In this document: positions 1,047 through 63,938 of the stretch, piece after piece
How positions within the stretch are numbered: the stretch's first letter is position 1
Layout of the letters: each line of letters opens with the position of its first letter
Assembly: GCF_028583425.1 (NCBI RefSeq)
Contig: NC_072796.1
Span: 88,315,964-88,379,963, forward strand
DNA length: 64,000 nt
Direction: 5' to 3'
From: Eublepharis macularius
Lineage: Eukaryota > Chordata > Lepidosauria > Squamata > Eublepharidae
The notes under the pieces: model-generated
What the model was told of the DNA's origin: nothing
The model's input: the letters and a program-made list of their open reading frames with translations, nothing else
Databases searched by the model: none
Program-made: the position numbers and the translations under genes

Positions 1047-1067
1047 CTAGAGCTCGAACAGGCTGTC

Positions 1068-4339: not shown

Positions 4340-26602
<22,263 letters not shown>

Positions 26603-33800: not shown

Positions 33801-34091
33801 CTAAAAAGACTGGAGCGATTCTTTTACTTTATGCACTACTGTTTGTTTACACAAAGCTGTAGGAGACCAATTAGATTTTTCTGAGTCTTTGTTGCTGTTC
33901 GCTTTAGGAACCTCTGCTACTGTGTATTTAAGATTTGCAAAGAAGCCTTTCTTGGATTTTCGATGCTTAAGATCTTCCATGCCAAGGAACCTTTTTTTGC
34001 TTTCATCTAGTTCTTTTTGCAGAAGAGATACTGTGGCTTCAAGTTCACGGACACGTTTAGCCCAGTTTTGAAGGCCTTCAATCTCTTGTTC
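33801..34091 (-). CDS. Kinesin-6 last coding exon (stalk end, basic tail, stop)
   Basis: 291 bp including TAG at 33803-33801. Encodes [20 protein letters not shown], a coiled-coil end, then [20 protein letters not shown] and a Ser/Lys-rich tail ending VKESLQSF. The basic tail could bind microtubules or nucleic acid (inference). It does not resemble the KIF20A C-terminus that I remember. Confidence 0.88.
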   Translation of the reverse strand, partial: EQEIEGLQNWAKRVRELEATVSLLQKELDESKKRFLGMEDLKHRKSKKGFFANLKYTVAEVPKANSNKDSEKSNWSPTALCKQTVVHKVKESLQSF

Positions 34092-37000
34092 CTACGGAAG
34101 CATTAGATGTACATTAGAAGGTTATTCATGGAACTTACTTAATCATCTCCCTAAGCTAAAATGAAGCTAGTTATCCTAGCTGAATTGTTAGAATGTTACC
34201 TCAGAATACAGAACATAGTGAAGGCCATCTTGAAACTACTGGTTGGAGAGATTTATTATTTATTATTTGAATATCAAGGAAAAGATACTGTAGTATAGTA
34301 TTTTCATGCTCTGTAATATATTTACTTACGATATACTGTCTGAGGTTATTCCAAAATACTATTTTATATACCTCAGTTCCCTTTAAAATTCTCCAAAGCA
34401 ATTTATAACAATGATACAATGAGTAGGCTCCTATAAACTTTCTGTTGGTTGAACATAATCTTTTTCCATCTTTTTCTTCGTCTGAAAGTAGAGATGGGCA
34501 CGAACAGCAATATGAACTAAAAAAACCCATAAACAGCCCAATCTGCTGTTCACGAACAAGCTGTTTGTGAGGCCCCATTCCAATTGAACAGGTGGTCATT
34601 GCAAGCCTCTTCGTTGCTGTTTGTCAAGCCAGACAATCTGGCACCTGCAATCAGTTCCCATGGCAACTCAGTCAGGGATTGTCTGAACTCTCTCTGAACT
34701 CCTGCTGTTGCCCTGGAAACCCCAATCTAAGCCCAATTTAGCTTGATAGGCAGGTCTTCCTTCCAAGTGTGGACTGGAGCTCCAAATTTGTTACAAGAGG
34801 AAAAGACCAGGGGGGAGGGGGCTCCCAGCTCTGGCTTTCAGGGAGAGACAGCTGCTGTTAGAGAGACAGGGTGAGTGCATTGGAGCTTGAATTTTCTTTG
34901 TGTGTGGTGGGATAGGGATCTACCCCTTCAGGTTCCAGCGCTGCTGCCAGGCTCTGGGGCCAAGCTATTATTTATTATTGGTACATATCCTGCTGCCTGC
35001 TCAGGTAGGATTTCTGGGAGTGGTGCAGTAGGGATCTTGATGGCTGGAGGAGAGTCTGCTGGCCCCCACGAACAATGAACAACGAACATGTTTGTGAACA
35101 GGATCATGTTCGTCAATGTTCGTGGATAGCAACGAACAATGAACACCATGTTCGTTGGGGTTTTTTCTGTTCGTTCCCATGTCTGTCTGAAAGCCTACGC
35201 TTTGAGATCTGGCAACCAGCAAAGGTTAAATAAATCACAGAAGGCCTCAGTGAAAAGGAAGCATCTGGAAAGATTGCAGATGCAAGAGAGGCAAACAGAC
35301 AGGTGGTAGAGTCTATTCCAATAGTGGCTCCGTTCAGACTTTATTGCAATTGTCTGGATGCAGGACACTCCACTGCACCAGGATCCGAAGCCGATTTATT
35401 AATCAAAGTTCATACTAACTGTGGTTTCATGGAATCTCTGAATGCAGAAATGATCTCTTAAACTTGACTTGTTCTCTGGTGATGCCCCGCAAGGCTTACA
35501 CAATCGGCATTAGACAAGGATTTGTGTGATTGTCTACAAGCTAAATTCTGGTTTCAGAAAATAAAATAAACTATAGCTTTCTCATGATGTTTGAACTAGC
35601 ATAGTAAATGCAATAAAAACCATATAAACAAACTAACACACAATATCCTATCCTTAGTGACCAGCAGTCCTTCCATATGAAGGTGGTTTTCTAACACAGA
35701 AGACAAGATCATAAGCTAAGAACCTACATTAGATTTGAATAGAAACATAAGTACAGAAATCTTATTCTATTGATCTGGCAAATTTATTATGTTGTTGCTT
35801 TCAGTTCCTTCATAATGCTAATGCTTAGAGGTACAATACTGTTACAAACAGAATCACAACTATGCAAGTAGGACACACAAAGGTTGCAATGCAACTTTAA
35901 GAGAAATATGACAAACCTTGAACATTAACACTTGCTTCAGTCTATTATTCTCTTCAACTGTTTTTTTACAGGCATCATTGGCATCTTGTAGCATTTCATT
36001 TAGTTTTTGCATTTTCAACTTCAGCAATTTGATTAACTGCAAACAAGATTATTTTCCTGTTAAAACATTGTAAGCACCAAGGATAAATGGTTGTAAAACA
36101 ACTCTCTTAAGAGGAGTTTGGAGATATGAAAGTGTATTAACTATTATTTATAATATTTTAGCTAATGAAGTTATATCAAGTCTGACCGGCAGGAGCAATG
36201 AAGCTTTCAGACCATTCTTTAACTATTTATTACCACCCAATAAGCTTTTTGCCCAAACCCAGTAATTTGAAGAGTGAATTCTACTACATTATATCCCACT
36301 GAGGTCCCTCCCCAAACCCTGCCCAGTCCCCAGCCCCAAACTCCGGGAATTTCCCAACCCTGAGTTGGCTACTCTACCTGTGAGGTATGTTAGGCTGAGC
36401 ATGTGAATGACCCAAAGTCACTCAACAAGCTTCCACAGCAGAATGGGGATTCATACCTGGTTCTCCCAGACCACAGTCTGACACTGTACCCATTACACCA
36501 TACTGGTAGATCTTAAAGTCATAGGGTATGTAACCTGAAGGGCTACAATCCACTACATATTTACAGCTAATTGTATGTGAAACTTCATATAGTCCAGTTC
36601 TACCTTCTATTTGGTTACTTTGTTTAGCAGCAACAGATATAGGGGTGTAATGGCAGGGTATTAACTGTACAAGGAACAGTAACTTGTGTACTTGCACAGA
36701 GCTGCCTCTGGGAGTCCCCTGAACCCCTGGGACAGTATTTGGGAGGAAGCTGTCAGGGGGTATAGTCTCCCCCCCAAAAAAAAAATTAGTACTCACAGTT
36801 CATTAGATACAATCCACAAAGTCCAAGTGACTGGTAGCAATAACAAGGGAAGTTACCTCATCTCTCTCTTCACACTGCCTTGACAAAGCATCTGAAGTTC
36901 TCTGAATTATCATCTTGTATTTAACATCTGTGTGTAATGAAAAATGTTATGAATATTTGTACCACATACTGAAGAATAGTACAGCTCAGAAATGTAAAAC

Positions 37001-40000
37001 AATTTCTTACCTCGATTAGTTTCTCCTTCTGTAATGTCTGAATTAGGATTTTCCAAAGCGAAGGCACTGGGCTCTCCAAACTTTAGCTTCAACTGCTGTA
37101 TTTTTATCTCTCGATCCTTGAACAATGAGATATATTTTGAGGTTATTATCATCAAAGAATATTGAAAAATGTACGAAGAGATTTTCAGTCTCTTACTGTG
37201 CCAGGAAAAACCTGTAAAAATTATGTTAATCACATGACCAATAGTCCAATTGTCTTTAACCTTATAATCTCCTTAATGAAAATAAAGCATTGTGAAAAGT
37301 GTTTTAATTTTGTGCCACATGCCTATCCCAAATAGGACTTTTGGTTATTAAATGTTTTAAAAACTTTTTCACATCTCTATAGAGTTCTCTCAGTACAATC
37401 CATTAATGCTGCTGGGCAAAGTACTTACTCTCACGTGACATCAGTTACAGTATTCTTGCAGCACAAGCATTTCAAATACAGGAATATATTCAAAACAGCC
37501 AAGATAAACAACCTGAAAAAAAATCTTACAGCTTTTATCTCTCACCATTACTTTTAAATAGAATTCCTGGATACAATTTTAAATAAGTGCAAATTGAGCT
37601 AAGTCAGGATAAATAGTTTTCTGGGAAGACATACCTCAACTTTTGCTTGTTCAGCTATGAACTCTTCAACTGGAACATAGTGCTCTTCAATTTGCTCCAT
37701 TGCACACATATATGCATGTTTCTTTATAGCCTCCTTGTACATTTCAAATTTACTCTCCAGTTTCTCTTCATAGCTTTCTTTCATCTCTTCCAGACGTTTA
37801 CTGGATAGGGTAGCATTAAGACTTACAGAACACTTTTAAGGACTTAGTTACTATTAACCCTCAAATAGGCTGCAATTTTACATTAAGAATAAAATTACAT
37901 GAGCCATGGAGATTGGATCCCCACATTTTTTTTTAAATAAAATTTTATTGGTGAGTGGAAAAACAAAAGAAAATTTTCCAAATTTAACACATATAATCCC
38001 ATTTTTTCCCCTTACTCTGTCCCCCACCCTTTTCCTCCCCCCTCCCTATTGACTTCCAATAGCTTTCCAACCCTTAACCCTTCTTATTACTTAAATCTAT
38101 TTCATTTATATTTTCCTACCAACTTTGAATCATAATATCTCTTACTCTAAGCACATTCTTATTCTTTTACATAAACTCTATCAAACATACTATCAATATA
38201 GTATATCTCATATCAATATAACATAACAATATAGTATAATATATAGCAGGGATCGCACTATCTCTTACTTTAAACTTATTCTATTTCTTTTCTTTTAAGC
38301 ATATACTCCATCAAATACACTATCAATATAGTATATATTATAGTAATATATTATATATATATTGTATGCTATGCCACCAATGTAGCACAGCACACAACAC
38401 CATATAGCACAACCACATAATATGTTATAATATAGAGTCTGATCCACTAACCCGTTATTTTATGTTATATATCATATATAGTATACCTCATTGAGATATC
38501 TGTTTACCCCTTCTCATTATCCCATATATTCAATGTAAAATTCCCTTAAATATTATATTAGCTTAGATTATAATTACATTCCCCCTAAATGGTAAGATCC
38601 CTTCTCTCTTCTCATTGCAACATTGTTCTTTAAAAATTTTCAAACTGCCACAGTTCTCCTTTTACATCCCACTTTTTTTCCAAAAATTGTTTCAATTTCC
38701 CCCAATCAACAATATATTGTCCTAGGTCAAGATCTTTAAGTTTCCTTGTCATTTTGTCCATTTCTGCCATGTACAGCAATTTGTAAATCCAGTCTTCTAC
38801 AGTTGGTATTTCTTGTGTCTTCCATTTCTGCGCATACAAAAGTCTTGCCGCTGCTGTCATATAAAATAACAATGTTCTATACTGCATTGGAACTGCCTCC
38901 ATTCCCAAGCAGTAGCAACAATTCTGGGTTCTTATTTATTTGTATTTGTAAAATCTCATTTATTGCTTCAATTATTTCTCCCCAGTACTGTTTAGCTACT
39001 TCACATGTCCACCACATATGATATAATGATCCTTCATGCTTTTTACATTTCCAGCATTTGTCTGACATGTTAGTATTTCCTAGCGCAATTTTCTTTGGTG
39101 TTAAATACCATCTGTAAATCATTTTATACACATTCTCTTTAATGTTCGTACAAGTTGAAATCTTCACTGTATTTTTCCATAGGTACTCCCATGCCTCCAT
39201 TGTTATTTCTTTATGAAAGTTTATTGCCCACTTCACCATCTGGACTTTTACTGTTTCGTCCACCGTAAACCATTTTAAAAGTAATTTGTAAATCTTGGAT
39301 ATTTCTTTCTTGCCTTCTTGTAGTATCACTTCCTCTAACTCCGAATTTTCCAATCTTATTCCTCCTCTCTGGCAGTCCGCATTATAAAGGTCTCTGATCT
39401 GTCTGTACTGGAACCATCCATAACAAGGAGACAATTCTTCTTCTGTCTTTATTCTCAGCTTTGAATATTGTATTTGTGTAATCTCCTTGTAAGTTAGACA
39501 TTGCTGTTCGTTATCAACAGTTCTCGGATCTATTACTTCATACGGAACCACCCATGAAGGAATTCCATCTTCCATATACAACTTGTATTTCTTCCAGACC
39601 GTGAAGAGGCTTCTCCGAATATAGTGATGCAAAAACATAGAGTCCGCTTTTACTTTGTCATACCACATGTATGCATGCCATCCAAATATTTTTTATGTCC
39701 CTCCAGGGCCAGCAACTTACGGTTTTTTAACATTATCCAGTCTTTCAACCATACAAGACATACTGCCTCATGATACAGTCTTACGTTGGGCAGTTGCAAG
39801 CCACCTCTTTCCTTCGCATCTTGTAAAACCTTCATTTTCACTCGTGGTTTCTTGCCTGCCCACACAAAATCTGAGATTTTCCTTTGCCATTTATCAAATT
39901 GTTTGGAGTCTCGGATAATTGGTATAGTTTGCAACAAGAACATCACACGTGGTAAGATGTTCATTTTTACTGCTGCAATTCTTCCCAGCCATGATAAATT

Positions 40001-43000
40001 CAGTTTGTTCCATTTTATTAAGTCTCTCCCTATTTGTATCCACAGTTTCTCATAATTATTTTTGAACAAATCTATATTTTTCACAGTCAGTTCAATGCCA
40101 AGATATTTATTAGTCACCTCACAGTCTGTTATCTCCGTTAGCTCTTGCTGCTTCTGTTTAGTCATATTCTTACATAAAATCTTTGACTTCTTTTTGTTCA
40201 CGTAAAATCCAGCCAAATCTCCAAACTCTTTTATTTTCTCTATTACCTTTGGCATATTTTCAATTGGATCCTCTACTATTAACATTATGTCATCCGCAAA
40301 AGCTCTGACCTTGTAAGAAAACTCTTTTATTTTCATACCTCGGATTGTGTCATCTTCACGTATTTGAATCATCAATATTTCCAAAATCAAAATAAACAAC
40401 AATGGAGACAATGGGCATCCCTGTCTAGTTCCTTTGCTGATTTTCAATTTTTTTGTCAAATCCTCATTCACTATGATTGCTGCACTCTGGTCTCTATAAA
40501 TTTCCTTGACCGCTTGTATGAACTTTTCTCCCATTTGCAGCTTTTCCATGGTAGCAAACATAAAGTCCCAGTTCAGATTGTCAAATGCTTTTTCCGCGTC
40601 TACGAAGAAAAAACCAACCTCTCTGTCACAGTGCTTGTCATAGTATTCAATAGCGTTTATTACTGTCCTCAAATTGTCTTTAATTTGTCTGTTAGGTAGA
40701 AATCCCACCTGTTTTTCAGCAATGAATTCCGACATCCATCCTTTCAACCTCTCTGCCAACACCTCTGCAAATATTTTATAGTCATTATTCAACAACGAAA
40801 TTGGTCTGTAATTTTTAACATTGGTCAAATCTTGACCTTCCTTCGGAATCAGCGATATACTGGCTTCGTTCCATGAATCAGGAATCCTTTGATCTTGCAT
40901 CACTCCATTCATTGCCTCTTTCAGAAAGGGCGCCAGTTCGTTAGCCATCACTTTATAAAACTTTGCCATTAGTCCATCTGGTCCTGGCGCCTGGTCCTGG
41001 TCCTGGCGCCTTTCCTATTTTCGTTGATTGTATAGCTTCCTTTATTTCATCTTCCGTCACTTCCTTATTTAATTTCTCTTTCCATTTTTCAGGAATTGTC
41101 GGAATTTTCATCTTCTCTAGGTATTCCACTATTGAATCTTTGCTCACTTCTTTTTTTTGGTACAATTTTGCATAAAACTTAAAAAAGGCTCTACTAATAG
41201 CCGCTTGGTCCATAAGCACATTATGTGGTGATCCCCACATATTTTTTAATGTGTAAAAGCAGCTACAGAAGAGGCAACTTTATGCCAGGGCCAGGAAAAC
41301 AAGGAGCTTAAATAAAATAAAGGTTAGAATATGTATACCTCCTGCCTTTTCTCTTGGCTCAAGGTGACTATAGCTCTTGGGACATTTTAAGGCCTTAAAA
41401 GGTAAGGACCAAATGTTTGAAATCTACCCCTCAACCCTGGCCACCACATTTTAGACCTACTGAAGTTTCCATACAATATTCAAAAGACATGCCCCCATGA
41501 AGCACATTATAGTAATCTAACCTGGATATTTCTAAACAGCCTAACACTTTGAAATAATTTGAACTTACATAAAAAATAAAGATCATGCAAGACTAATAGG
41601 CTACCAACATAACATCTAGTTTCCAGTATGGTATTGATTCAATATCAAATCTTCATTTTAGAACTAATGATTCGTCATCCTAACAACACACCTACTCAAT
41701 GCACATATGCAATACTTTGTTCTTTGCCATTACAAGATCTTACAACATACCGCCAGGATTCTTCAGTTTCCAACAGTTGTTGAAACATTGCTTCTGCCAT
41801 TTCTTTCCGTATCTGCACTTCAAGAAGCAGCTTGCTTTGTCTTTCTGAAATCAGTTTCTCCTTTAGGAGCTCAGTAGTTTTCAAGAGATCCTGCGATATA
41901 TTGTTGTGATATTATCAGGAATCAGAAGAATCAAGTATCTCTAGATTCAAGTTTTATCATAAACTGTTATCCTGTTCAGTTGAGGTAAGACTGTTCAACC
42001 TGGCTCCTCCCTGTTTTCCTGGAACAGTAAGCTGATCAGCGGTCCTGATTGGGGAGGGAAGAGCATAGAGCCAGCGACCAACCATCCAACTGTCAGCAGT
42101 GATCCTGAGAAAACTGAATGGGAACAACCAGTCTTAATGAGAATTATAATTTGGGTAGGCATTCCTGTGTCAGGGGAGATGGAACATTCCCAAGTACTGT
42201 TCTGGGTAAGATGCCTTGGGGATCCTTATGGATTGAAAGGAGGGATGATAGAATGAATAAATAAATATTTATAACATAGAAAGGAATGTTAGCCAGCTGT
42301 AGTACATGCCCTTCACTGTAACTTAGTGTGTAGTTTTGTAAGAACCTGTGACAATTCTCTTATACAACTAGGAAAATGTTTAGGATGTCAAACTTGCCAA
42401 GGGATTGGGGCAAGTAACACTACCAAAACCTCCAATCAATATATATTGATTTAAAACCCTATTATAAATGTGTTTATATTGTTACACAAGTTGCATTTGG
42501 AGTGTATTCCCTACCCCAAATCAAACTCCAATATATCAGAGCAAAACAAAGTGTCCCACAACACAAAAAGTCTAGTTTTGTTGGCGAATATCAGTTTGTT
42601 TCACAGCTTTCAGACTTGGTTTCAAATACCAACCTTGATATACACCTCAGCACGAGAGAATTTTGCCCCCTCCATGCTTGAATATTCAATAACATTCCAC
42701 AGAACTATTGTGAGTTATCAGGCCATACTTCTGTGAAATGAAAATGTATCTTTCCAAAGCTCTTCATACTGCTAAAAAAAACTTCTCTCAAATGAACCCA
42801 ATCAAATTGCCTGAGGGAAAATGTCTCAATCATAATTCAATTGATTTTTCTGAGGTTCTTTTATACCCCAAGTGCTTTTTTAAAAACAGCAAAAAACCAA
42901 GTAGTAAATAGGTGTACTTTCAGGAACCAATCCATCACGAAGTGAGAAAGAATGTTATCCTAGAATGATGGTAAACAACTTTAATGCTCAATCCCATTAA

Positions 43001-49000: not shown

Positions 49001-52000
49001 AAGGGGTAAATGGGCCCCCTGTGGCCATGGTGAATATGGCTTCAGAGGGAAGCCTGAAGCCCCTTCTTCTCTCTCTCTCAGTGTTTGGAGCCATGTGGTG
49101 CGACTGAGAGGTTTTTAATAGTCTCCACCTGAGTGTGTGACTAAGAGACAGGTGCCTGCACTATGATCCAGTTCATTGTCACATGAAATGGGTATTCTGG
49201 TCTTAAACTCTGTCTGGGTCCAGAATAGAAGACATGCTTAATCAAAACCCTGCCTTGGGAACCCTATTTTGGGGTAGAAAATGGCATATAAATATATTTT
49301 TAAGGTGTCAATACTTTCCAATATCACATTAGTGTTTTAACCCACAGCAGTTACTTAAAATTAAATAGCTGTCGGCTTCCTTGAGTGATTTTTGACGCCA
49401 TCCATTTACAAAATGGAGGCAGGCAGCCATGAAAGCACCATCATTACTGCCTGCCTCTGTTTTGTAAATGAATGGTGTAAAAATCTTGCAAGGAAGCCAG
49501 CAGCCTTCTGTGAGTATCGCGCTATTTTTAGACCGTGGGGAAATGGCCTTAGGAAGAAAACAAGGCCAATTCAGAATAATTTCTGTTAGCAGAAGAATTA
49601 TCAATGGCCAAAAGGATGAGATTTACAGTAAAGGTGTCTCTGAACTAAGACTTATGGGAAATAGATGGTTTTGTTTGAAGTATCAATATTAGACTGTTAG
49701 AACTAATAGTGCTACTGCTGCTGTCAAACATGTCTTTACGTCTGTTCACAAGCCTGTCCAGGGAACCTGTAATGCTTAGTAACAAGGGGAGAACCAGGGC
49801 TTTTAAACTCCCCTCTGTCTGGAGATCAGGGGGCGGGGCTACTAGCCATGTGACCATTTTCTCCGAGAGCAACCCGTTCCACCACCTCTTTTCCCAGAAA
49901 AAAAGCCCTGGGGAGAACCAAATATTTCCCACACCTCAGGCCTTTATTTCTGGAGGTACATGCAGGTACAGAGTACCAGCACCTCCTTCAGCAGGCAGGC
50001 TTATGACTGAACATCATAAGTACTGGCACATCTTTTTTTTCCCCTTGAAGTGGAAAAAACAAACGACCACATACAAAGCTGCATCCAACTCTGAATTTTC
50101 ATTCTTTCCCTAACAGGAAAAAGTATTATGCATAGAATTCAAGACAGAATACCTTTAGATGTTGTTAATTTACATCAAGTAAATTAAATTTTTATTTGAC
50201 CAGATGTATCTGTACAGTATATGACTTCAAAAAATCCAAGCACTCAGGTTGCCACATGGCAAGAATAAGCTGAAAAGTCCAATATGTGTACAGTTCTGTA
50301 GTCTGAAGCCCTAGAACTGCTACCAGCTTAAGAAGAAAGGCTTAACTATATTTAGAAAGAGCGAACCTTCTACTTGATTGCTGATTCGTCTTAGTGCATG
50401 CCAAACTTCTGTTTTTGTTTCCTATTTTAAGTATTTTGTAAGCTTCATCTATGCTCTTTATATTGATCCACTTCAAGTCTGGATAAGAAAATATTTTTCA
50501 AGTTATTTTTAAATTATGTCTACTAAAGGCATAAAATGATTCATTAGCAATACAGCATAAAAGATTTAGCAAGTTAAATGCAAGAACGAAAAGGGTGACC
50601 AAGACAAAACAGAAAAGCAGCTTTTCTGCAACAAAAGTTGCAACAAAACATTTATAATTAAATTGGGTTGAATGAACTACTCCCTTCTGTGAGTGAAGAA
50701 GTTTCCTGTAGAGTTTCCTCTCATACAGGGTACCAGAGAAAGCACAGCAATACTTTCAACTGCCCACATGAGTGTATAAACAAATTTAATAGAGCAGTAA
50801 TATTATACTTATCCAACAAGCCCATCAGTATCTGAAAATCAAAATTAAGAATTTGCGCACATATCTAAATGTCTCTTGTAACATAAAATCCCAATTCACA
50901 GTATTACACTTTGTTCTGATACTGAAACTAGCAAGGGATGATCGAATTAAATGGTATGCCCTGAACCTTTCAGGAAGCCTTTCATAAAGACATATACAAG
51001 AGGCCGCTAAAAGTTTGCAACATGAAGGATTTTGACAATAGCTGTAAGTTGAATAAAAGCAGCAAAGAGTACACAATGGTTAATTTTCCCAATTAGATAA
51101 AATGTTTAACTTCATTTACATTTTTAAAGGTTTCTTTTTGGAATGTTTTCTATATTTTTATTATGTACGTATCAATTAAAGAAAATCTAGTAATGGAATG
51201 CCCCGGCCCCAAACTTACCTGGGCCGGCGTTTGCGGACCCAAGCGGCCAGGGGGAAGCAAGCAGGAGTGGTGTCCATGCTGGCCCTGCAGAAACGCGCTC
51301 ACAGCCTCGGGCTAGGAATGTGGAATTGAATGATCCCAGCCAATCAGAGCAGCTGTCTGGGAGCTACAAGGGCGGGAGCCGTTGCCTGACCTGAGTGAAC
51401 GAGTTTTCACTCAGGTCCTCCTGCCCTCTATATGGTACTGGGCCAGCCTCCTCTGGACGCAGTCGGCTCCGGAACAGCGATCCCCACCCACCCTCCGCAG
51501 GATCAATTTAGAAGGTTTAGTATGGTTATACGGTTATGTGGGGGGTTGGCGGCGGTATTGCTGATAATAGTGTATTGTCATTCTGAGTTAAGCATTGTTG
51601 GGCTTTATGGAAGATGTTGATGTGTTATTTGTCACAACTTTCAGTGGGCGGTTTGGGCGTTGGGCACCGATCCCTTGGGGGGGAAAGGGCCTGTGTGCAC
51701 TGTTTCCCCATAGAGGGGATCCCCATAAGGGGTCTTGGACCAGGCTTGGCAGTGGTAAGCCCAGCTCGGGGGGCTGACAGAACAAGCCTGCGTTCAGGTG
51801 ACAGGGGGCCACGCAGAGGCTACCGCCTAGTGTGGCTTCCTCATACATCATCCCATGGTGTCCCCTTTCAGCAGGCGGGCTGATAGGGTGGAGAGTCATC
51901 ATTGACAGGCGGGTCTGCCGATGCTGGGATCCGTGCCCTACGCTGCCATGGCTCCTTTATTCTGTAATCAATAAAGTTGTGGCCTATTTTCTCCAAACAA

Positions 52001-55000
52001 GCGTCGGTGTGTTTATTCTGCTTGGAAGACCCGGGCCATATCAAGCTGGGCCCGCAAGCTGCTTTACATTAAGCTGTTTATTATATTGCCTTGAACACTG
52101 TGTGGCAGAAAAGTGGCCTAACATTGTATAAACATAACATCTTTTAAAAGTAACACTCAAAGAAAAGCCGTAAAGCAGTCTGTAGATTGGGAAGAGTTCC
52201 AACTGGATTTCACAACATGAATTCAGCATTAACTATGTGAAGTAATGTGTTTAATGGAGCGTTACCACTTAGGGATTGTAGTCAACAAAACTCCAAACAT
52301 GGAGAATAAATGCATCTTTACACCTCATAATCCATGGGCTGGATCCCACTACACTACTCAGCTAAGGGCAGTACATTCTGTCATACATCAACACAAGCAA
52401 CTCCCCAGCCCAAACCAAGGCTTCATACAGAACAGAGTGGTGGGATGTAACAGTCTCATTGGAGGGGGGGGGGGTGTATACTCTGTATACACATACACAA
52501 ACATACAGACACACATATATCACAACAGGATGAACATACTTTCTGCTTTTGCCTCCTATTACTACAGATAAGACATTTTTGTGATAGAAGTCTGCTTTTA
52601 AAGATGTAACAGCTAAAAATATGTTTGAAGTACCTCTGACTCCCAAATAGGAAAGAGGCAACATCCACAAGGTTTTCAGCAATATTAGAGCTACGGAGAG
52701 TGGTATTAACGCCCCCTAGTGTTAAGAGCTTCCCCATGCATCTGAAGCTTGCCCATGTCTATTCCATTAGGTGGTCCAATACAGTAAGTATTCTTAGACC
52801 TCCCATTTCCATTATTTAATCATTGCACTGAACCTATAACTTTGAAGGGTTATCATTACCTTTTACATAAGAATTTCCTCCTTGATCTTCACAGATCCTT
52901 AGAACTTTGCGCTTTTGAGTTTTTGATATTGGTAATAAGTCCAGTAGTTCATATATGTACTCATTGTAGATTTCAAAGAAAGAAACCCAGACAGAGAAAA
53001 GTATTTTCTGATGCTTGGTACATCTTTCAGAATCTAGCAGTTCATTTCTTTGGTCTGTTAACCAGAAGTAGGAAAAAGGTAGAATAACTCAAAACATCAG
53101 TTGTATGTAAGTGTAAACAAACATAAAGGTCCTCAGGAAAGATGTGCCCCCAAACCAAGACAACAAAGTAAGTACCACACAATTATACTTATGTATCTTT
53201 AACAACTGATTCAAAACCTTTAGAGCAAAATACATGCTTCTGCATTAATTCTTTCCCTCTTTTTTCATGGAAATTAATATTTCCAAAAGAAATTTGTTAA
53301 CCATAACCATTTAGCAGTTACCTAATTGGTCCAAAGCAAGACTGGGTGAGCTACGGTTACTACAAGTTGAATCTGATGTACCCAACGTTGTGGTAAGCTT
53401 CAACGTATTATCAGCCTCCTTGATAGACATAAAAAGATTAAGATTAATGGTGTTCTAATATGTATCCAATTATTATGCTATGCCAGTATATACTTTTTCC
53501 AGTATCTACAAGGTGTAAAATTGTCCATTAAATAAAGATTTTTTTAAAAATGATCTAATTAAATTTTCAAACTTAGTATTTGAAAACTTTCAGTTTACAT
53601 ACTTTGATACAAGTGCAGAACAGTCTATAAATTATTATTACTATTCAACTGCCATGAGCTCAGTAGGTGGCCTTAGGTAAGCCACTCCTCTCAGCCCCAG
53701 CTGCCTTGTGGGGATAACAACAACACGGACTTTGTTCACCACTCTGGGCGGGGCACTAATCTGTCTAGAAGAGCAGTATATAGGCACAGATACTATTTCT
53801 TGCTGTGGATTGCACAGCATAACTCAATGCACATACAAGGGGCCCTCTTGACTGGAAACTCCATGTTTCCCTTACACTGCGTAGTGCTACCATCAAACAC
53901 TTCTAATGCAGGGTTATCTTCAAAGCCCTTCTTGCCACTGACCTCTTTCAAAGAGGCAAGGAGTGCAGCTTTTATGGATTCTTCTCGCTTAGACTGCAAA
54001 TCATCCAGCCTTTTGATAAGATTGCTGAAGCAAGGCTTTAAGTTCATCTTTTGATACTGTCTTTCTCGTATATGGTTAAAGATCATCTCAAGAGCACGAG
54101 GCAGGATACCACCATCTTTTGGACAACCTGTGGAAATAATTCATTTTTCTTGTGTTATATGCTATAGTTTTTGCAGCTGCTAAAATTTGCGTTTCTTGTA
54201 TAGAATTGTGAACATTGAACAGAGAATGTACCATGAACAGTGAACGTTTTGCCAGCATTAGTGACACCATAGGTAAACACAAGACCATTCATTCCTTTGA
54301 TGTATGCTTTTACTATCTCACTCATTGTACCTTCAAAAAATTCACTTTGAGTACTGTCTGGTCCAAAAACCTAAAGAGAGAACAGAGTGTTATACTGTCG
54401 TTGAGAGAACATCGTTTTGTTTGAATATGTGCTTTATTGTTGAGCTTCTCTACATAGCAATAGCCCAATGCTGTCTGGTCACTTTGGCCCAATGGCCTCT
54501 TTGAGAGTAAGTGTGCTGTAATGGTTAGGGAAAGAAGACCCACAATGAAGCTTACTGGATAAACTATGGACAGTTATTCTCTCTAAGCCAATCTACCCCT
54601 AAGGATTATTCTAAAGGATAAAATGGGCAGGTAGGGACTCACTATTCATACCACCTTGAGCTACATCAAACCAAAGGTATTTTCAGGTGGGCAGCCGTGT
54701 TGGTCTGCAGTAGAACAGCAGGATTTGAGTCCAGTGAGGATTAGAGACCAACACGATTTTAAGGGTATAAGCTTTTGATAGTTAAAGCTTATTTGAAGAA
54801 GGAAGCTCTTGAAAGCTTATACCCTGAAAATCTTGTTAGTCTCTAGCGTGCCACTGGATTTAAATTCTGCTTTTCAAAGGGTTAAGTAATAAATAATAGC
54901 ATTTAAGTGATAAAAGTTCTATTAATCAAACCTTCCTAAAATCACATTAAGGATTTCTAGTTAGAATCTGACAGAATTGTTATTCTCATACAGTGGTCCA

Positions 55001-58000
55001 CATTTTATCTAGTTATGCATTTAAGGGTGCAATTTACTCTGGACTAAGCTATATGTCTGTGGACTTATTTCTGAGTAAGCACTCTGGATCAAAGTGCAGT
55101 GTTACAGTGCCTTAAGTCTATTTTGTCCCCAAAGGAAGTTAATCTTACCTGAGTAAAGGTGAATCGATGTGCACATTGCCCAATTCCCTTTTCACTGTTC
55201 TTCATTGCAGCTGATTCTTTAGGTGCCCGAAGAGTTACTTTTTCTTGGTTTTCAATAGTTAAGCAGTCCTTAACAGTATATAAGTTACTTTAAATAAATT
55301 TCCTGAAAAGTACTTCATCTACTAAAATTAACACCTTAGGTTTTAAGCACTCCAAGTGCTCTGCCAAGTACCATCAGAGCGTGAAGTGACCTTCTCCAAG
55401 GTGAGAAAAGAGGGGAAGGGACCAGTGAGAGAGAAGCAGACAGGAAAATTTGCGAGATGTCTGAGGAATTTTTGATGATTAATGTTTTCAGGAAAGTGAT
55501 CTCTTATTCTTAAATAAATACTTTTCTTAGATTTCACCTCCATCCCTTTCCCAGTATCCAGTGCTGGTTAAAAAAATCGACTGCCCTACAGGAATCCTTC
55601 TTACCAATCCCATGCTCTACTTGTACATTTGTAAATAAAACAAATATTACAACAACACTTGAAGGTTCCACTCCTCCAAAGGGAACCAATCCAGGAGGTG
55701 CAGCTTCTAGAATGTTCTGCCCCTCAGACAAGTGTGGAGGATGTTACTGTGATTCTATGTATATGCCCTTTGTTGTTCATTTTGTCTTTTTTGAATTGTT
55801 CTTGAAATACAAATTTTAGGTCAATTTCATATTTAACCAAAAGCATTTTGATGTTGTATATGATTTTAAATATACATCTAAAAGCCCTCTGTTCCAAGAC
55901 AGCCTATTTCCTAAAAGTTTTTTTTTTAAATTGTATCTCATTTTCCTGTTTTGGTTATCCAAGTTTTGTCATCAAACACCCTCCAAATGTTACATCCTTT
56001 CTCTATATCCTGCAGTAATTAAAGCTAGAATCTCACTAAATATTAATAAAGGGGTAAAGCGAATCAAATCCACATTCCTGTGTCTGCAGTTGTAAAAATG
56101 GAACATCACATTTGATACAAAATTCTGAACCTGATTCTACACACATGCATCCAACTAGTGATAAGCTGTACAATTCACCTGGTCTTCATTGTTTTCAAGC
56201 TCTGCCTTGGAGAAAGGTCGCACTCTCAAGTACACTTTCAACGGCTGACACACATCCTAAAAAAAATTAAAGATGACAGTAACAGCCTTCAGATGAAGTT
56301 GCCAGAAATGTCTGAGTTGTGTATTTCCACTTCAACCTTCAGTATTTCTCCACTTGTCTTCATGCTTCACCCAGCTCACCTTGTCCCTGTCTGTGCACTC
56401 CTCACTCTGAAAACTTCTCTCTGTCAAACATATCAAACGTCTTTCCAACAGCCTTCTGCTACAGGACTACATCCCATAACAGACATGCCTTGGCTCCGTT
56501 TGCTAGTCATTTCTGGTTGGTTCCAACTTCACGAGTTAAGCTGCTTGTGCAACTTCCCTCCTTCAGCTTCAGTCCACTTCATGCTCAGTGTTGTTCCAAA
56601 GACTGCAGGAGAAATTCCTCCTTTCCTCCTCAGCTGACAGAAATACACTTGAACTGATAGAAAATTACCATAGGATCCAACACATTGGGCATTTATTTAT
56701 TGAAACCACAACACACAATGATAATGCAAGGACTTCACGTGAGAAAATATCTGCAGAAGCAGTCACAAGAAAGCTTGCCTTGTCTAGCAGAACCATAATC
56801 GCCATCCAATAATTAAGAGGATTCAGGGTGGGCCCACTTTAGCGATATTAATGTAGACATTCCCACTCTGATTCTGCCATCATTTATATATTCCAGAGGG
56901 AAATACAGGATACAAAGCAAATTGAAAAGGGGTGACTATGTAATTTAAACACTTATACACCACTATTTTCAATGGGGACACAAAGTGGTTTACAAAGATT
57001 TTTCCTCAACTATCATCCTGTGAGATAGGTTAGGCTGAGAAAGAATTTAAAATAAGTGGAAATTGAATTAACTATAAGGATTAAATATAAGGATTGAGTA
57101 ACTAATAATATTTTCTTTCTTTGATAAGATTTGTATAATGCACCAAACTGAATGTCTGAAGGTATAGACGAGTCAAATTGATTGACTAGGTGATGAGAGT
57201 TATATAGAATTACCATAAAAAGACAGAATGAGTAATATATAGAGAATAAGTCAAATTGTTTGATTTAAATGTGTAAGATTTTTATGGTTTATGATATATA
57301 GGTTTATGATATATAGAAATATTTAAAAATGGAAAATGGGATAAATTGTTTATCTAAGATGGAAACAAAGACTTACAGTTTGGGTATATAATAAGAAAAA
57401 ATAGTTAAGGATGTACTGCTTAGTATAATGGAGAATATATATTTGTTTTAGATAGAGGAATTTAATAGAAGTAAGGGAAAAGGGACAAAGGGTTGGAAAA
57501 CTGTTGGAAGTCAACAAAAGGGGGGGGGGAAAGGGAGGGGGTTAGAAATGAAAAATTTGGGGAAAATTGAATGTAAATGTAAAAAAAAAACGGATTCTAA
57601 CCCAATAAAAATTTTTTCAAAAAAAAAAAAAAAAGTGGAAATTGAATAGTTTTGAACACATTTTCTGAATAGTTAAACCTTTATTTAATATAAATAGCCA
57701 TGTTTCTATTATCTTTTTCAAAGTTTCACAGGACATGGTACACATTTTGGAAGACTAGTATAGTTGCTTTACTTTGCCTTTTCAAGCAACCAATCTGTCA
57801 CTGCTTCCTTACTTCCTGCAGAAACATGCAAAAGAGTATCTATCTAATTTTTATTCTAGATCTAAGACTGTTCACCACTTTTCACACAAGCTCCATTTTG
57901 CATAAAATAATTTTATTTTGTATCACTGGGAATGTTTAATAATTCCTCCATACAGGTAGGAGAAAGTGATTTCATTTTCAAACAGCCTGTTACATTAAAA

Positions 58001-58189
58001 AAAGAAAAAAGAAAAACTCTTTAATGTCTACATAAAGTCAAACAGCAAGCAGCTCACCTCTTCCTCATAATGTTCTTTAGCGCTGGATATCTCTGACAAC
58101 TCCAGGGGCAAAGTTAAGCCCACCTTAGACACCAAATCCTTCATACTACACGTTGTTGAGAGCACACCAGTTCCTTCCTGACAATTCAT
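33801..58189 (-). CDS. Kinesin-6 motor protein (KIF20A/KIF20B-like), 18 coding exons, complete
   Basis: Kinesin-6 motors walk on microtubules and act at the central spindle and midbody. Joining 18 exons (each listed below) gives 828 codons plus stop, with phases matching at every junction and no internal stop. The motor domain (about 53-473) starts [14 protein letters not shown]. The P-loop GVTNAGKT (145-152), switch I SSRSH (343-347) and switch II DLAGSER (375-381) are intact. A family-typical long loop-6 insertion lies between NLKP and [14 protein letters not shown] neck ([14 protein letters not shown]), an acidic stretch and a coiled-coil stalk (about 532-760) follow, then a basic tail (HRKSKKGFF). 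Length is near human KIF20A (890) and far below KIF20B (about 1800). Some blocks resemble KIF20A ([17 protein letters not shown]), others KIF20B (QKMNLKP), so orthology is open. RPS20 lies upstream on the same strand; LYN converges from the other side. Confidence 0.93.
34092..34480 (-). other. Kinesin-6 intron, nothing recognised
   Basis: Intron between coding exons 17 and 18, up to the hAT insertion. No other feature was seen. Confidence 0.45.
34489..35185. mobile_element. Non-autonomous hAT element with AACGAACA subterminal motifs
   Basis: A 697-bp insertion with a perfect 8-bp duplication, TCTGAAAG (34481-34488 and 35186-35193). Inverted ends: TAGAGATGGGCACGAAC at the left and the complement of CAGACATGGGAACGAAC at the right. 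The right subterminal zone repeats ACGAACA/AATGAACA several times in both orientations. No transposase frame. Confidence 0.87.
35194..35916 (-). other. Kinesin-6 intron, nothing recognised
   Basis: Remainder of the intron between coding exons 17 and 18. No exon, RNA gene or bounded repeat was recognised. Confidence 0.45.
35917..36036 (-). CDS. Kinesin-6 coding exon 17 (stalk coiled coil)
   Basis: 120 bp, phase 0. Encodes [20 protein letters not shown] then [17 protein letters not shown]. Strong heptad pattern. Acceptor TTTGCAG, donor AAG|GTTTGT. Confidence 0.88.
36200..36520 (-). mobile_element. tRNA-derived SINE fragment
   Basis: The minus strand of 36375-36510 reads a tRNA-like head (GTGTCAGACTGTGGTCTGGG, then CAGGTATGAATCCCCATTC) and body. 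The C-rich stretch 36300-36370 belongs to another decayed repeat. It lies in the intron between kinesin exons 16 and 17. Confidence 0.55.
36857..36927 (-). CDS. Kinesin-6 coding exon 16 (stalk)
   Basis: 71 bp. Encodes [20 protein letters not shown] then ERDE. Acceptor CACACAG, donor GAG|GTAACT. A small exon identified by phase and splice sites. Confidence 0.85.
37011..37116 (-). CDS. Kinesin-6 coding exon 15 (stalk)
   Basis: 106 bp. Encodes [20 protein letters not shown] then [13 protein letters not shown]. Acceptor TGTTCAAG, donor CGAG|GTAAGA. Phases agree with both neighbours. Confidence 0.9.
37635..37800 (-). CDS. Kinesin-6 coding exon 14 (stalk)
   Basis: 166 bp. Encodes [20 protein letters not shown] and continues to AEQAKVE. 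Similar to the KIF20A block LLEEMYEEKL. The intron before it holds a 3.3-kb L1. Acceptor TATCCAG, donor GAG|GTATGT. Confidence 0.92.
37927..41229 (-). mobile_element. Long L1 LINE, 5'-truncated, in a kinesin intron
   Basis: An 11-bp target duplication, GATCCCCACAT (37916-37926 and 41230-41240), bounds it. The poly(A) tail is the T run at the left. It starts slightly further 5' than the 16.5-19.6 kb copy, reading [13 protein letters not shown] and [16 protein letters not shown] before the RT. FADD and the [18 protein letters not shown] motif are present. The frame shifts in at least three places (near 40960, 39660 and 38890), including at a CTGGTC-type short duplication around 40980-41010. It is older than the first copy, with a different 3' untranslated region. 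Same strand as the kinesin. Confidence 0.94.
39650..40969 (-). pseudogene. L1 ORF2 piece: reverse transcriptase
   Basis: The longest open piece of this L1 (439 codons). It carries [44 protein letters not shown] and FADD. It is close to the 17218-19629 frame throughout. Downstream pieces (39668-38877 and 38908-38630) continue the C-terminal part in other frames, and 41240-40953 holds the upstream part. Confidence 0.88.
41241..41750 (-). other. Kinesin-6 intron, nothing recognised
   Basis: Sequence between the L1 and exon 13. A short stretch near 41330-41450 (CTCTTGGCTCAAGGTGACTA) may be an old LINE tail, but boundaries are unclear. Confidence 0.35.
41751..41890 (-). CDS. Kinesin-6 coding exon 13 (stalk coiled coil)
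   Basis: 140 bp. Encodes [20 protein letters not shown] and continues [20 protein letters not shown]. Heptad spacing of Leu/Ile/Met indicates coiled coil. It aligns in order with the KIF20A/KIF20B stalk start. Donor TGGCG|GTATGT. Confidence 0.92.
41891..43784 (-). other. Kinesin-6 intron, nothing recognised
   Basis: AT-rich intron of 1.9 kb. No exon, RNA gene or bounded insertion was recognised on either strand. Confidence 0.45.
43785..43961 (-). CDS. Kinesin-6 coding exon 12 (neck, acidic linker)
   Basis: 177 bp, phase 0 at both sides. Encodes [20 protein letters not shown], then an acidic, Ser-rich run ([17 protein letters not shown]). KIF20A has a comparable acidic segment after its neck. 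Donor GAG|GTAATT. Confidence 0.92.
44255..44485 (+). mobile_element. tRNA-derived SINE (squamate CORE/MIR-like)
   Basis: The head shows GATGTAGTGGTTCAGACACC (A-box region) and GATTTGAGTCCCCTCTCTGC (B-box region). The body has TGGGTGACCTTGGGCCAGTC and the end has GCAGGGTATAAG. It is a near-full-length diverged SINE in the intron next to kinesin exon 11. Confidence 0.75.
44500..44659 (-). CDS. Kinesin-6 coding exon 11 (microtubule-binding helices)
   Basis: 160 bp. Encodes [20 protein letters not shown], then [20 protein letters not shown] and [13 protein letters not shown]. The acceptor GGTTAAG at 44660 gives the phase that completes Lys from exon 10. PFRESKLTR is a hallmark of kinesin motors. 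Confidence 0.95.
44660..45929 (-). other. Kinesin-6 intron, nothing recognised
   Basis: AT-rich intron between exons 10 and 11. No exon or bounded repeat was seen. Confidence 0.45.
45930..46205 (-). mobile_element. LINE 3'-region fragment (CR1/L2-type)
   Basis: It shares motifs with 61855-62215: CTTTTCCACCCAAGGCAGCA, TATGCCAAAC, and a block ending GGTTGTCATCTGTCTAGCC. A short CA repeat is at about 46029-46041. Confidence 0.6.
46240..46475 (+). mobile_element. Squamate SINE with CCTTTACCTTTTT tail
   Basis: Contains GACTCAGCCTTCCATCCTTC, GGTAAAATGAGTACCCAG, GGCAATGGCAAACCACCCCG and ends GGGGACTACCTTTACCTTTT. The 3' end resembles squamate SINEs whose tails derive from the Bov-B LINE. Confidence 0.7.
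46490..46680 (-). mobile_element. tRNA-derived SINE
   Basis: The minus strand begins CCAGTTTGGTGTAATGGTTT, has a B-box-like GGGTTTGATTCCCCACTC and the body CAGCTGGGTGACTCTGGC. It lies beside a LINE fragment and another SINE, forming a repeat cluster in one kinesin intron. Confidence 0.65.
46681..47075 (-). mobile_element. CR1/L2-type LINE fragment
   Basis: The minus strand reads [20 protein letters not shown], then [20 protein letters not shown] and [12 protein letters not shown], the thumb region of the reptile CR1/L2-type polymerase. It is truncated at both ends. Confidence 0.75.
47314..47460 (-). CDS. Kinesin-6 coding exon 10 (switch II)
   Basis: 147 bp. Encodes [20 protein letters not shown], then [27 protein letters not shown] is switch II and NINNSL starts the relay helix region. 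Donor CCTAA|GTAAGT. Confidence 0.96.
47461..48209 (-). other. Kinesin-6 intron 9, nothing recognised
   Basis: No feature other than splice sites at the ends. Confidence 0.5.
48210..48281 (-). CDS. Kinesin-6 coding exon 9 (rest of switch I)
   Basis: 72 bp. Completes SSRSH and encodes [20 protein letters not shown] then LGVSE. Acceptor TTTTCTAG, donor CTGA|GTAAGT. Confidence 0.92.
48282..49365 (-). other. Kinesin-6 intron, nothing recognised
   Basis: No exon or bounded insertion was seen up to the fold-back repeat at 49.37 kb. Confidence 0.45.
49366..49503. repeat. Fold-back (MITE-like) inverted repeat
   Basis: Arms of about 57 bp (49369-49426 and 49447-49503) pair with few mismatches around a 20-nt spacer. 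Arm motifs include CGGCTTCCTTGAG and CATTTACAAAATGGAGGCAG. No clear target duplication was found, so the class is unassigned. Confidence 0.75.
49795..49910. mobile_element. Short hAT element (deletion derivative)
   Basis: A 116-bp insertion with a perfect 8-bp duplication, GGGAGAAC (49787-49794 and 49911-49918). It starts CAGGGCTTTT and ends AAAAGCCCTG. The core CTCCCCTCTGTCTGGAGATC is shared with 12896-13112, but most of the left inverted end is missing. Confidence 0.88.
50367..50478 (-). CDS. Kinesin-6 coding exon 8 (up to switch I)
   Basis: 112 bp. Encodes [20 protein letters not shown] and ends NQQSSR, the first half of switch I. The donor AGAAG|GTTCGC is weak. It is accepted because the next exon restores SSRSH exactly. 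Confidence 0.9.
50479..51198 (-). other. Kinesin-6 intron, nothing recognised
   Basis: AT-rich intron between exons 7 and 8, up to the GC-rich LTR-like block. No features. Confidence 0.45.
51199..52056 (+). mobile_element. Probable solo LTR (fossil)
   Basis: A GC-rich 858-bp block starting TGCCCCGGCCC and ending GGGCCCGCA, the TG...CA form of an LTR. Inside, in the expected order, are a CCAATCAG box (about 51340), a TATA-like CTATATGG (about 51427) and a polyadenylation signal AATAAAG (about 51969) followed by a T/G-rich stretch. No internal coding part is present. No target duplication was recognised, so the edges and class are uncertain. Open frames across it are composition effects. Confidence 0.5.
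52057..52859 (-). other. Kinesin-6 intron with simple repeats
   Basis: A G run followed by a CA/TA-rich low-complexity stretch lies at about 52460-52530. Nothing else was recognised. Confidence 0.5.
52860..53033 (-). CDS. Kinesin-6 coding exon 7 (motor core)
   Basis: 174 bp. Encodes [20 protein letters not shown] and [18 protein letters not shown], a highly conserved motor core segment (FFEIYNE). Acceptor CTGCTAG, donor AAAAG|GTAATG. Confidence 0.94.
53322..53418 (-). CDS. Kinesin-6 coding exon 6 (loop-6 insertion, Ser/Thr-rich)
   Basis: 97 bp. Encodes [20 protein letters not shown] then [12 protein letters not shown]. Composition and position match the Ser-rich insertion of KIF20A. It might carry mitotic phosphorylation sites (inference). 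Donor TTAG|GTAACT. Confidence 0.88.
53640..53800 (+). mobile_element. tRNA-SINE fragment
   Basis: Contains TGCCATGAGCTCAGTAGGTG, CAGCCCCAGCTGCCTTGTGG and a tail ending AGAAGAGCAGTATATAGGCA. The 5' head is missing. Same family as 23885-24030. Confidence 0.65.
53943..54127 (-). CDS. Kinesin-6 coding exon 5 (start of loop-6 insertion)
   Basis: Encodes [20 protein letters not shown], then [20 protein letters not shown] and on to SLKE. The donor GAG|GTCAGT was chosen because it is the best phase-0 site that keeps the next exon open. The frame stays open beyond it for about 60 codons, so a later donor is possible and this edge is the least certain of the gene. Confidence 0.8.
54232..54370 (-). CDS. 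Kinesin-6 coding exon 4 (P-loop)
   Basis: 139 bp. Encodes [20 protein letters not shown] and then [25 protein letters not shown] is the kinesin-6 form of the ATP-binding P-loop. The donor is HG|GTACAT, leaving one base for the next exon. Confidence 0.93.
54690..54875. repeat. Fold-back dispersed repeat
   Basis: Arms 54718-54776 and 54811-54870 are diverged inverted copies (ATCCAGTGG / CCACTGGAT and GGGTATAAGCTTT / AAAGCTTATACCC cores). The left flank has CAGCCGTGTTGGTCTGCAGT, a motif of a widespread reptile repeat. It is related to the fragment near 4515-4595. Confidence 0.65.
55149..55268 (-). CDS. Kinesin-6 coding exon 3
   Basis: 120 bp, phase 0 at both sides. Encodes [20 protein letters not shown] and then [14 protein letters not shown], which aligns with the KIF20A stretch ending RGIGQATHRFTFSQ. 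Donor CAG|GTAAGA. Confidence 0.93.
55269..56178 (-). other. Kinesin-6 intron, nothing recognised
   Basis: Intron 2. No exon or bounded insertion was seen. Confidence 0.45.
56179..56256 (-). CDS. Kinesin-6 coding exon 2 (motor beta-1)
   Basis: 78 bp, phase 0 at both sides. Encodes [20 protein letters not shown] then [14 protein letters not shown] is the first strand of the kinesin motor fold and matches KIF20A. Donor CAG|GTGAAT. Confidence 0.92.
56935..57053 (-). mobile_element. SINE/LINE tail fragment
   Basis: CACCACTATTTTCAATGGGG and CCTGTGAGATAGGTTAGGCT are diverged versions of a common reptile retroposon 3' part. It immediately precedes the L1 insertion at 57069. Confidence 0.5.
57069..57632 (+). 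mobile_element. Short L1 insertion (3' end only), very similar to the 16.5-19.6 kb copy
   Basis: A perfect 15-bp target duplication, AAGTGGAAATTGAAT (57054-57068 and 57633-57647), bounds it. It ends CCCAATAAAAATTTTTTC plus poly(A). By eye it is almost the same sequence as the minus strand of 16547-17120, including the G-run and GTTGGAAGTCAACAAAAG. It is antisense to the kinesin, in intron 1. Confidence 0.93.
57648..58057 (-). other. Kinesin-6 intron 1, nothing recognised
   Basis: Ends in an A-rich stretch near 58000-58015 on the plus strand. No exon was recognised. Confidence 0.45.
58058..58189 (-). CDS. Kinesin-6 coding exon 1 (start codon)
   Basis: ATG at 58189-58187 in the context AAACAATGA, with A at -3. 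It encodes [20 protein letters not shown] and on to HYEEE; donor GAAGAG|GTGAGC. A good acceptor (TCTTACAG) sits just 7 bases before the ATG, so a 5' non-coding exon probably lies further upstream. The frame upstream of ATG is open to that acceptor, so a longer N-terminus cannot be excluded. Confidence 0.75.
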
Positions 58190-58198
58190 TGTTTCACT

Positions 58199-60242
58199 GT
58201 AAGATGAGAGTAATAGCAGGTTTGTGTTGGATCCAACCCTCTAGATTTTTACTGATAAAACACTTCCCCTTTAAGTCAATGATATACTTTTTAGATATTT
58301 TAATGCTTCAGCATTGTGGCCACTAAAACCCCCACTTGTTCTCAAAACCTTACAAAAGCAAGAGAAAAATCATACGCGTAGTGAGGCTGCAGCTACAAAC
58401 AAGTTTAACAAAGCTTTATACACACCCTAATGATGAGACATAAGCCTCCTTCTATGAGTAGAAAGATGCCCGTTTCACGGTAATACCAGAAACTGTTTAT
58501 TTGGCCCAAACCACAGATTAACATGTGATGGGATCCAAGCCCACAGAATTCAAGCCCAAACCCAGGTTCTGCTTTCAGAACCAATGCCCCCCTGAGTAAC
58601 ACCACTATCCATTACACCTATGCTTACAAAGCTAGGCCACCTGCTTCTCCACCCACCCACCTCATAAGGAAACAAAGCAAACATGCAGCAATTTAGCAGG
58701 CTCATTAAGCAGCTTCCTCTGATACTTATCTCAAGTCAGTTTTACAGATGGGCTACTACCAAGGCCAAGACACAAGCGATTCACTCTCAGCTACAAAATG
58801 AACACACAATACAGAAGCAGATCTGGACCTGCGGACAGATCCTATTTAACATAAATAAACATACCAAGGCATGTACAGACCTCAGCTGCTCTGTAGTACA
58901 CAATATAACACTTGGCCATAAATAATGTGCCTGAACTTGTGCAGAGTACCTTCCACTTGGGTCTCTTTAAATACATAATGCACCAATTTAATGTAATCTA
59001 CCTAAAGGTCTTGGGCACTTCCAGAAACAAATAATTTAAAAAATACTTTGACTCTGAAATTTCTTGCCTATCAAACTCCAGTTGTGCTTAACATACCCAT
59101 CAACTTTCAACCCCTTAATATATTTCTTTACTGCAGTATTTGCACTCCTTACATATATTCATGGCTCTTACAGCCCAGTCTTATGCAGATTGGGCACACT
59201 TACACCTTTTGGTTACCAAAGGCTTACATATACCTAGCACTTCATAAAAGCAGCATGTCTGGTTGTAATCCTGCATGCAATTACTCAGTACAGCTAGCAA
59301 ATGTACAAAGAATCAGGCTTCTTTCCCACACTTTCATTCAAACTTTGTTCTACTCCTTAGTTTTACAGATAAGACTTTTTCTTGCTTTTGCACACGTTTC
59401 CTTTATCTTACAATTGACTTTACATTTCTTTTGTGTTTACTTACCTACTTTGTCTATAAGCACTACTAAACCCCACTCTCTATTTTATCTCTGATACTCT
59501 CTATGCCCCACACCCCCAAGTTTTATAGGCTGGCCATTGACCAATAAGGAACAGTCAAGTAAGTTATTAATATCCATCAATCCACTCCTAGTCCCACCCT
59601 CTAAATGACTTAGGAAGCAATTATCCTAAGAATGTCTACTCAAAATCTTACTCAGGTCTATTCAATGAGGTTTACTCTCAAGAAAGTGTTCTTAGGAGTG
59701 TGCTGTTAGAACACTAACAGACAAGCAGTTCACAGGCCACAGGCAGGCCTATAAAATCTAATGCCTTACTGTTGTGTAAAACCACTATTCTGATTTGGTG
59801 CTATTTGGGCTTGCAAATATTTTGATGTCAGCATCTTAGTACAAATGGTGATATACTTCTGCCATCTTACGCTTTCTGGAAATAATATTCTCAGAACTTA
59901 CTTTCTGGATAAAGAGGATAGGATCAGATAGTACTCATGTGCATAGCAGGCAAAAGTCATTAAAGTTGACAGTCAATTCCACAATACTAATTGCAGGCCC
60001 AGGAAATAAGGAAAAATAAGCTTGAAGTCAAAGCAGCCATCGCTCATGCAAACAAGTTTAACAAAACTTTATACACACATACACCCACTTCCTCTCTGTG
60101 ATACACCCTGCTGTGTATCTTTGTTCAGTATGACAATTCTTTAATCAAAAATGTTTCATATCAGCCTCTGATATGAAATTAAGTTTTGATATTGGATAGC
60201 ATATTATATAATTAATCTGTTTAGATTTGTGCTACGAGACTC
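58199..60242. other. Upstream region of the kinesin; promoter not located
   Basis: It should contain the non-coding first exon or promoter of the kinesin, but no CpG-rich block or core promoter stands out. A 30-bp direct repeat (AAACAAGTTTAACAAA core) occurs at 58396 and 60049. A small imperfect inverted element bounded by TCCTAAGAA lies at about 59623-59697. Confidence 0.4.

Positions 60243-63755: not shown

Positions 63756-63938
<183 letters not shown>

Follow-up and report, generated by a model that had tools for sequence, protein, structure and literature searches.

A kinesin-6 gene flanked by LYN and RPS20 in Eublepharis macularius, probably a third and ancient KIF20-class lineage

Three features define kinesin-6 motors, namely an extended N-terminus, an insertion in loop 6 and a lengthened neck-linker region, and these motors have been described as three subfamilies, with KIF20B being vertebrate-specific (available part of PMC9581516). 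For KIF20A, a meiotic role has been reported in mouse (available part of PMC9083010). In chicken, a gene named KIF20AL is placed in the chr2 region of 109.47–111.47 Mb with LYN, RPS20, MOS, PLAG1, CHCHD7, TGS1 and TMEM68, in a 2025 article whose accessible text gives the region genes alphabetically within 2 Mb (PMC12193209). That study sampled four tissues, and KIF20AL is among the 30 testis genes differing between large- and small-testis chickens, being up in the large (same accessible text). We have searched the literature for KIF20AL as a whole word, with subscription journals mostly outside the scope, and this article was the only one returned; within the same scope, we saw no account of the gene as a separate subfamily. 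For cattle, the gene table of PMC3683327, in the part available, has LYN at 24847257–24920713 (+) and RPS20 at 24955079–24956324 (-), and lists no gene between them.

We have analysed a window of 64,000 nucleotides of Eublepharis macularius (NC_072796.1, forward-strand positions 88,315,964 to 88,379,963), where a kinesin-6 gene, labelled X here, runs on the minus strand from 58189 to 33801. It is quite probable that X is an intact, ancient, third KIF20-class gene, probably orthologous to chicken KIF20AL, kept in sauropsids and lost in mammals, to which a germ-line central-spindle role may be ascribed. The orthology is probable from the gene name and the neighbourhood: LYN, RPS20 and a TGS1-type match, the latter a single family match ~75 kb before the window start, are common to X and chicken KIF20AL as far as the chicken article is available. 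Chicken annotation already has the gene under this name, hence it is not undiscovered (PMC12193209, accessible text).

The exons of X have been rebuilt with a splice-chaining script on the minus strand, independently of an earlier sequence-only reading of this DNA. The rebuilt model has 18 exons, with the ATG at 58189 and the stop ending at 33801, and all 17 introns are GT-AG with consistent exon phases (Table 1). That is, the 18 phase-matched exons of the sequence-only reading have been recovered, and so has its unbroken frame, which ends in a single, terminal stop; its length of 828 residues did not hold, as the rebuilt product has 837. An intermediate version of 17 exons and 827 residues was dropped, since its weak donor for exon 15 was wrong, and the strong donor it had skipped at 37011 exposed exon 16. 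The same reading had placed X between LYN and RPS20, and the two flanking exons in Table 1 agree with this.

A splice-acceptor-like sequence, CTCATCTTACAG, is seen at window positions 58190–58210 (-), a few bases before the ATG. Because of this acceptor, a non-coding 5' exon is likely, and the promoter of X probably lies further upstream, beyond that exon and towards RPS20. A search around the ATG exon for promoter motifs had no usable outcome, which is explained if the true promoter is probably upstream of a further exon. Elsewhere in the window, open frames at 1047–3949 (+) resemble a DIRS-type RT/RNase H and tyrosine recombinase, and we take them to be a DIRS-type retroelement. An 807-residue open frame at 17218–19641 (-) and a similar but broken copy in intron 13 of X (~38630–41279) both resemble LINE-1 ORF2, which is presumably what they are.

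Table 1 Features of the window, in window coordinates.
Feature	Coordinates	Strand	Basis
LYN last coding exon, within open frame, flanking marker	26171..26602	+	best PDB match LYN
X exon 18, stalk end, tail and stop codon	33801..34091	-	gene model, open reading frame
X exon 17, stalk	35917..36036	-	gene model
X exon 16, stalk; absent from first chain	36857..36927	-	gene model
X exon 15, stalk	37011..37116	-	gene model, strong donor 37011
X exon 14, stalk	37635..37800	-	gene model
X exon 13, stalk begins	41751..41890	-	gene model
X exon 12, extended acidic neck-linker region	43785..43961	-	gene model, intron comparison, neck-linker comparison
X exon 11, motor domain ends	44500..44665	-	gene model, intron comparison
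X exon 10, switch II DLAGSE	47314..47460	-	gene model, intron comparison
X exon 9, switch I end (SH)	48210..48281	-	gene model, intron comparison
X exon 8, switch I first part (NQQSSR)	50367..50478	-	gene model, intron comparison
X exon 7	52860..53054	-	gene model, intron comparison
X exon 6, loop-6 insertion	53322..53418	-	gene model, loop-6 comparison
X exon 5, loop-6 insertion begins	53943..54127	-	gene model, intron comparison, loop-6 comparison
X exon 4, P-loop GVTNAGKT	54232..54370	-	gene model, intron comparison
X exon 3	55149..55268	-	gene model, intron comparison
X exon 2, motor domain begins; 3' intron position common to own KIF20A and KIF20B	56179..56256	-	gene model, intron comparison
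X exon 1, coding, start codon 58189	58058..58189	-	gene model
RPS20 exon, flanking marker	63759..63938	-	match to hand-typed human RPS20 query

As judged from its sequence, the product of X is a kinesin-6, with the N-terminal extension, the loop-6 insertion and the extended neck linker all present. The Pfam Kinesin domain covers residues 55–482 of the 827-residue version (E 5e-95), and the start of the motor at residue 55 leaves room for the extension. In loop 6, X has 93 residues, against 9 in the gecko's own KIF3-type motor and 111 in its own KIF20A, and from the motor end to the stalk start there are 59 residues in X versus 54 in own KIF20A, with the coil start set by homology. The best PDB match is the KIF20A motor at E 2.4e-148 (the next kinesin: 7.7e-53), and chance is therefore excluded. 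The translation contains GVTNAGKT, NQQSSRSH and DLAGSE, which we take to be the P-loop, switch I and switch II, complete as the sequence-only reading had it. Its basic tail is basic only mildly, with 7 K/R versus 4 D/E in the last 47 residues. The tail exon (33801–34091, -) encodes KKGFFANL, a motif similar to the KRPFLQNF that own KIF20A on C4 has close to its C-terminus, and this likeness is perhaps a conserved tail contact.

If X follows the anatomy of its family, its protein would dimerise through the stalk, and two slow plus-end-directed heads on long flexible neck linkers would keep antiparallel microtubules together in anaphase, in the central spindle and the midbody. The tail would carry or anchor cargo for cytokinesis at these sites, in the way that KIF20A handles the chromosomal passenger complex. 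Germ-cell division may be the main setting, as the chicken testis transcript suggests. Such a germ-line bias, the least certain part of this picture, has behind it a single testis record from chicken and the meiotic role reported for mouse KIF20A, and we would give it slightly less than an even chance. That X, though real and ancient, overlaps KIF20A as a general motor of mitosis or of neurons, without any germ-line bias, also comes near to an even chance: cell division and brain development both involve KIF20A and KIF20B (PMC9581516 and PMC9083010, available parts), while the sole expression record found, a thin one, is from chicken testis (PMC12193209, accessible text).

The ancient origin of X is argued by the motor-domain tree. 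We have built it from seven sequences, namely X, own KIF20A, mouse KIF20A, own KIF20B, own KIF23, human KIF20B and human KIF23, over 382 columns and also over 296 gap-free columns; the two human rows were typed by hand, and a five-row set (296 columns) omits both. In this tree, X forms its own branch, and the order among X, KIF20A and KIF20B has a UFBoot of 53 and an SH-aLRT of 39.8. For X inside KIF20A, the AU p is ~1e-5 on 382 columns and ≤1.1e-6 on 296; the milder SH test on seven rows does not reject this placement (0.076 and 0.062, respectively), and in the five-row set AU gives 0.0002 and SH 0.001. For X inside KIF20B, a clade test that uses the hand-typed human row, the AU p is ≤1.5e-6 (382 columns) and ≤0.0004 (296 columns), and SH rejects it on 382 columns (0.025–0.027) but not on 296 (0.091 and 0.099). 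For X with KIF23, AU gives 1.5e-8 (382 columns) and ≤4.9e-6 (296 columns). The placements outside both clades, sister to KIF20A and sister to KIF20B have AU values of 0.69, 0.43 and 0.23 on 382 columns; X may thus be sister to KIF20A, to KIF20B or to both, all three remaining compatible with the tree.

Overall, these tests agree with the expectation of the sequence-only reading that X would fall outside both clades, by AU and more mildly by SH. The mixture of KIF20A-like and KIF20B-like blocks which it had described is seen as well: X goes with KIF20A in 18 of the 43 clade-diagnostic columns, with KIF20B in 12 and with neither in 13. On the basis of these comparisons, X is very probably a deep lineage of its own within the KIF20 class, the third beside KIF20A and KIF20B. 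Over 296 columns, the identity of own KIF20A is 78.4% to its mouse counterpart and 59.5% to X; since X is thus more distant from the mouse and gecko KIF20A than these are from one another, it should predate the mammal/reptile split.

The intron layout tells how X was formed. Exact alignment column and phase are common to own KIF20A, of which 15 exons have been modelled, in 11/17 introns of X; two further introns lie within four columns of own KIF20A introns and have the same phase, and eight match own KIF20B, in a partial model without the loop-6 exon. Least certain is the match of intron 14, in a part of the stalk that aligns poorly. From these shared positions and phases, X is therefore a duplicate of genomic DNA rather than a retrogene. 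The common layout would also suit a recent, lineage-specific duplication of the local KIF20A or KIF20B, as would the SH test alone, which allows X inside KIF20A on seven rows and inside KIF20B on 296 columns (0.09–0.10). Such an origin is nevertheless very improbable, given the identities of own KIF20A above and the AU rejection of X beside own KIF20A (0.0004, 1e-5 and, without the hand-typed rows, 0.0002) and beside own KIF20B (1.3e-7 on 382 columns, 1.6e-6 on 296).

X could also be a decaying pseudogene that still looks intact, although this is very improbable. In the gecko it is known from genomic sequence alone, no CpG island was found at its ATG exon, and two of its donors score poorly (0.2 for exon 4 and -0.2 for exon 8); both weak donors share their position and phase with own KIF20A and KIF20B. 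We have simulated 500 copies at each level of neutral substitution, and 13.4% of them were stop-free at 0.02 substitutions per site; a gene that had lost its function only very recently would thus escape notice. At 0.05, however, the proportion drops to 0.4%, with a mean of 4.6 stops per copy, and at 0.1 no copy was stop-free, while X has no stop in its 837 codons. Among the motor columns invariant in the other six sequences, X keeps 84/88, against 84 of 84–90 for each of those six, and among the five KIF20-class rows it keeps 136/150 otherwise invariant columns, against 136 of 143–156 for the others. Moreover, KIF20AL, which has these neighbours in chicken, is transcribed there (PMC12193209, accessible text).

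To place X among the kinesins of its own genome, we have run a search over the whole assembly (2.24 Gb, 72 contigs), in which only the best kinesin candidates were scored, and at least two further KIF20-type loci were found among them. Own KIF20A lies on C4 from 93439141 onward, with two ANAPC8/CDC23 family matches ~15–20 kb beyond it; CDC23 presumably adjoins KIF20A in human, and the N- and C-termini of this gene are, as we take them, like those of human KIF20A. It looks intact, with a well-kept C-terminal exon (C4:93452623 onward), and its model has exons to 15, without exons 16–18. The motor exons of own KIF20B are on C6 from 103374644 downward, with 64.7% identity to the hand-typed human KIF20B row (377 columns); a weak, below-cut-off match to the family of RPP30, presumably a gene of the KIF20B neighbourhood, lies ~0.55 Mb away. 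Own KIF23 is on C18, with 85.3% identity to the hand-typed human KIF23 row (354 columns). Another candidate for KIF23, at C12:35.39 Mb, was rejected by its translation, which looks to us like a kinesin-8. Two single-open-frame kinesin motors were considered as retrocopies of X; the one on C5 matches KIF3B best, and the one on C1 was read by eye. We have also searched for the vinculin/catenin family, as a mark of a whole-genome-duplication block shared by the KIF20A and KIF20B loci, and of the 53 matches listed none is on C4; a weak one is on C7 and the rest are spread over C1, C6 and C10, which speaks neither for nor against such a block.

Because KIF20A, KIF20B and KIF23 are found elsewhere in the genome, the first two at separate loci, a check proposed by the sequence-only reading, X is a further gene rather than one that changed its place. 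The alternative of that reading, a transfer of KIF20A or KIF20B itself to the side of LYN in this lineage, would fit the similar and high motor identity of X to both (58–61% over 296 gap-free columns), but is practically excluded by KIF20A being on C4, with its closeness to mouse KIF20A and ANAPC8/CDC23 nearby, by KIF20B being on C6, and by X lying outside both clades by AU.

The reading preferred from the start, namely a separate paralogue lost from mammals, is supported by the tree and by KIF20A and KIF20B standing elsewhere; for mammals, its statement that LYN and RPS20 are neighbours without a kinesin agrees with the available part of the one cattle table, and to our knowledge human and mouse have no such kinesin gene between the two either. 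Within this scope, neither of the two outcomes that the reading had named as refuting it was seen. A loss of X in mammals is quite likely, taking the absence from the cattle annotation table together with no such gene being known to us in human and mouse. X would have arisen by a DNA-level duplication before the reptile–mammal split, and would have been retained in the LYN–RPS20 interval in sauropsids and lost on the mammal line.

More tentatively, X might represent a fourth vertebrate kinesin-6 subfamily beside KIF23, KIF20A and KIF20B, which branched off the common stem of KIF20A and KIF20B before these parted (the best, weakly supported topology), became specialised for germ cells, and was lost as mammals let KIF20A take over male meiosis; we regard this fuller picture as rather doubtful. 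If it is true, the three-subfamily account of vertebrate kinesin-6 is a mammal-centred view. With a further ancient KIF20 lineage in the gecko and, by name and place, in chicken, but not in mammals, models of cytokinesis drawn from mammalian cells would miss one motor of the other amniotes. The mammalian loss of X would also be a natural test of which KIF20A functions widened, such as the meiotic role in mouse (PMC9083010, available part).

Compared with the known motors, X shares with KIF23 (MKLP1) the kinesin-6 class, but it is only 43.5% identical to own KIF23 over 336 columns, and a grouping of X and KIF23 apart from KIF20A and KIF20B is rejected. With KIF20B (MPP1) it shares the class, a motor identity of 53.8% to the gecko's own copy over 385 columns and the eight introns, whereas KIF20B has a far longer stalk (the human protein has about 1800 residues) and its clade excludes X by AU. 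KIF20A (MKLP2) is similar in overall size (about 890 residues in human, 837 in X), in its colinear motor (52.9% identity between X and mouse KIF20A over 459 columns), in the length of its loop-6 insertion and neck linker, and in the 11 common introns. It differs from X in its locus, in a clade to which X does not belong by AU, and in the C-terminal stalk and tail, which have diverged in X. Chicken KIF20AL (GGA2, ~110 Mb), as far as its source is available, has the same region with LYN, RPS20, MOS, PLAG1 and TGS1, a name meaning KIF20A-like, and a testis transcript.
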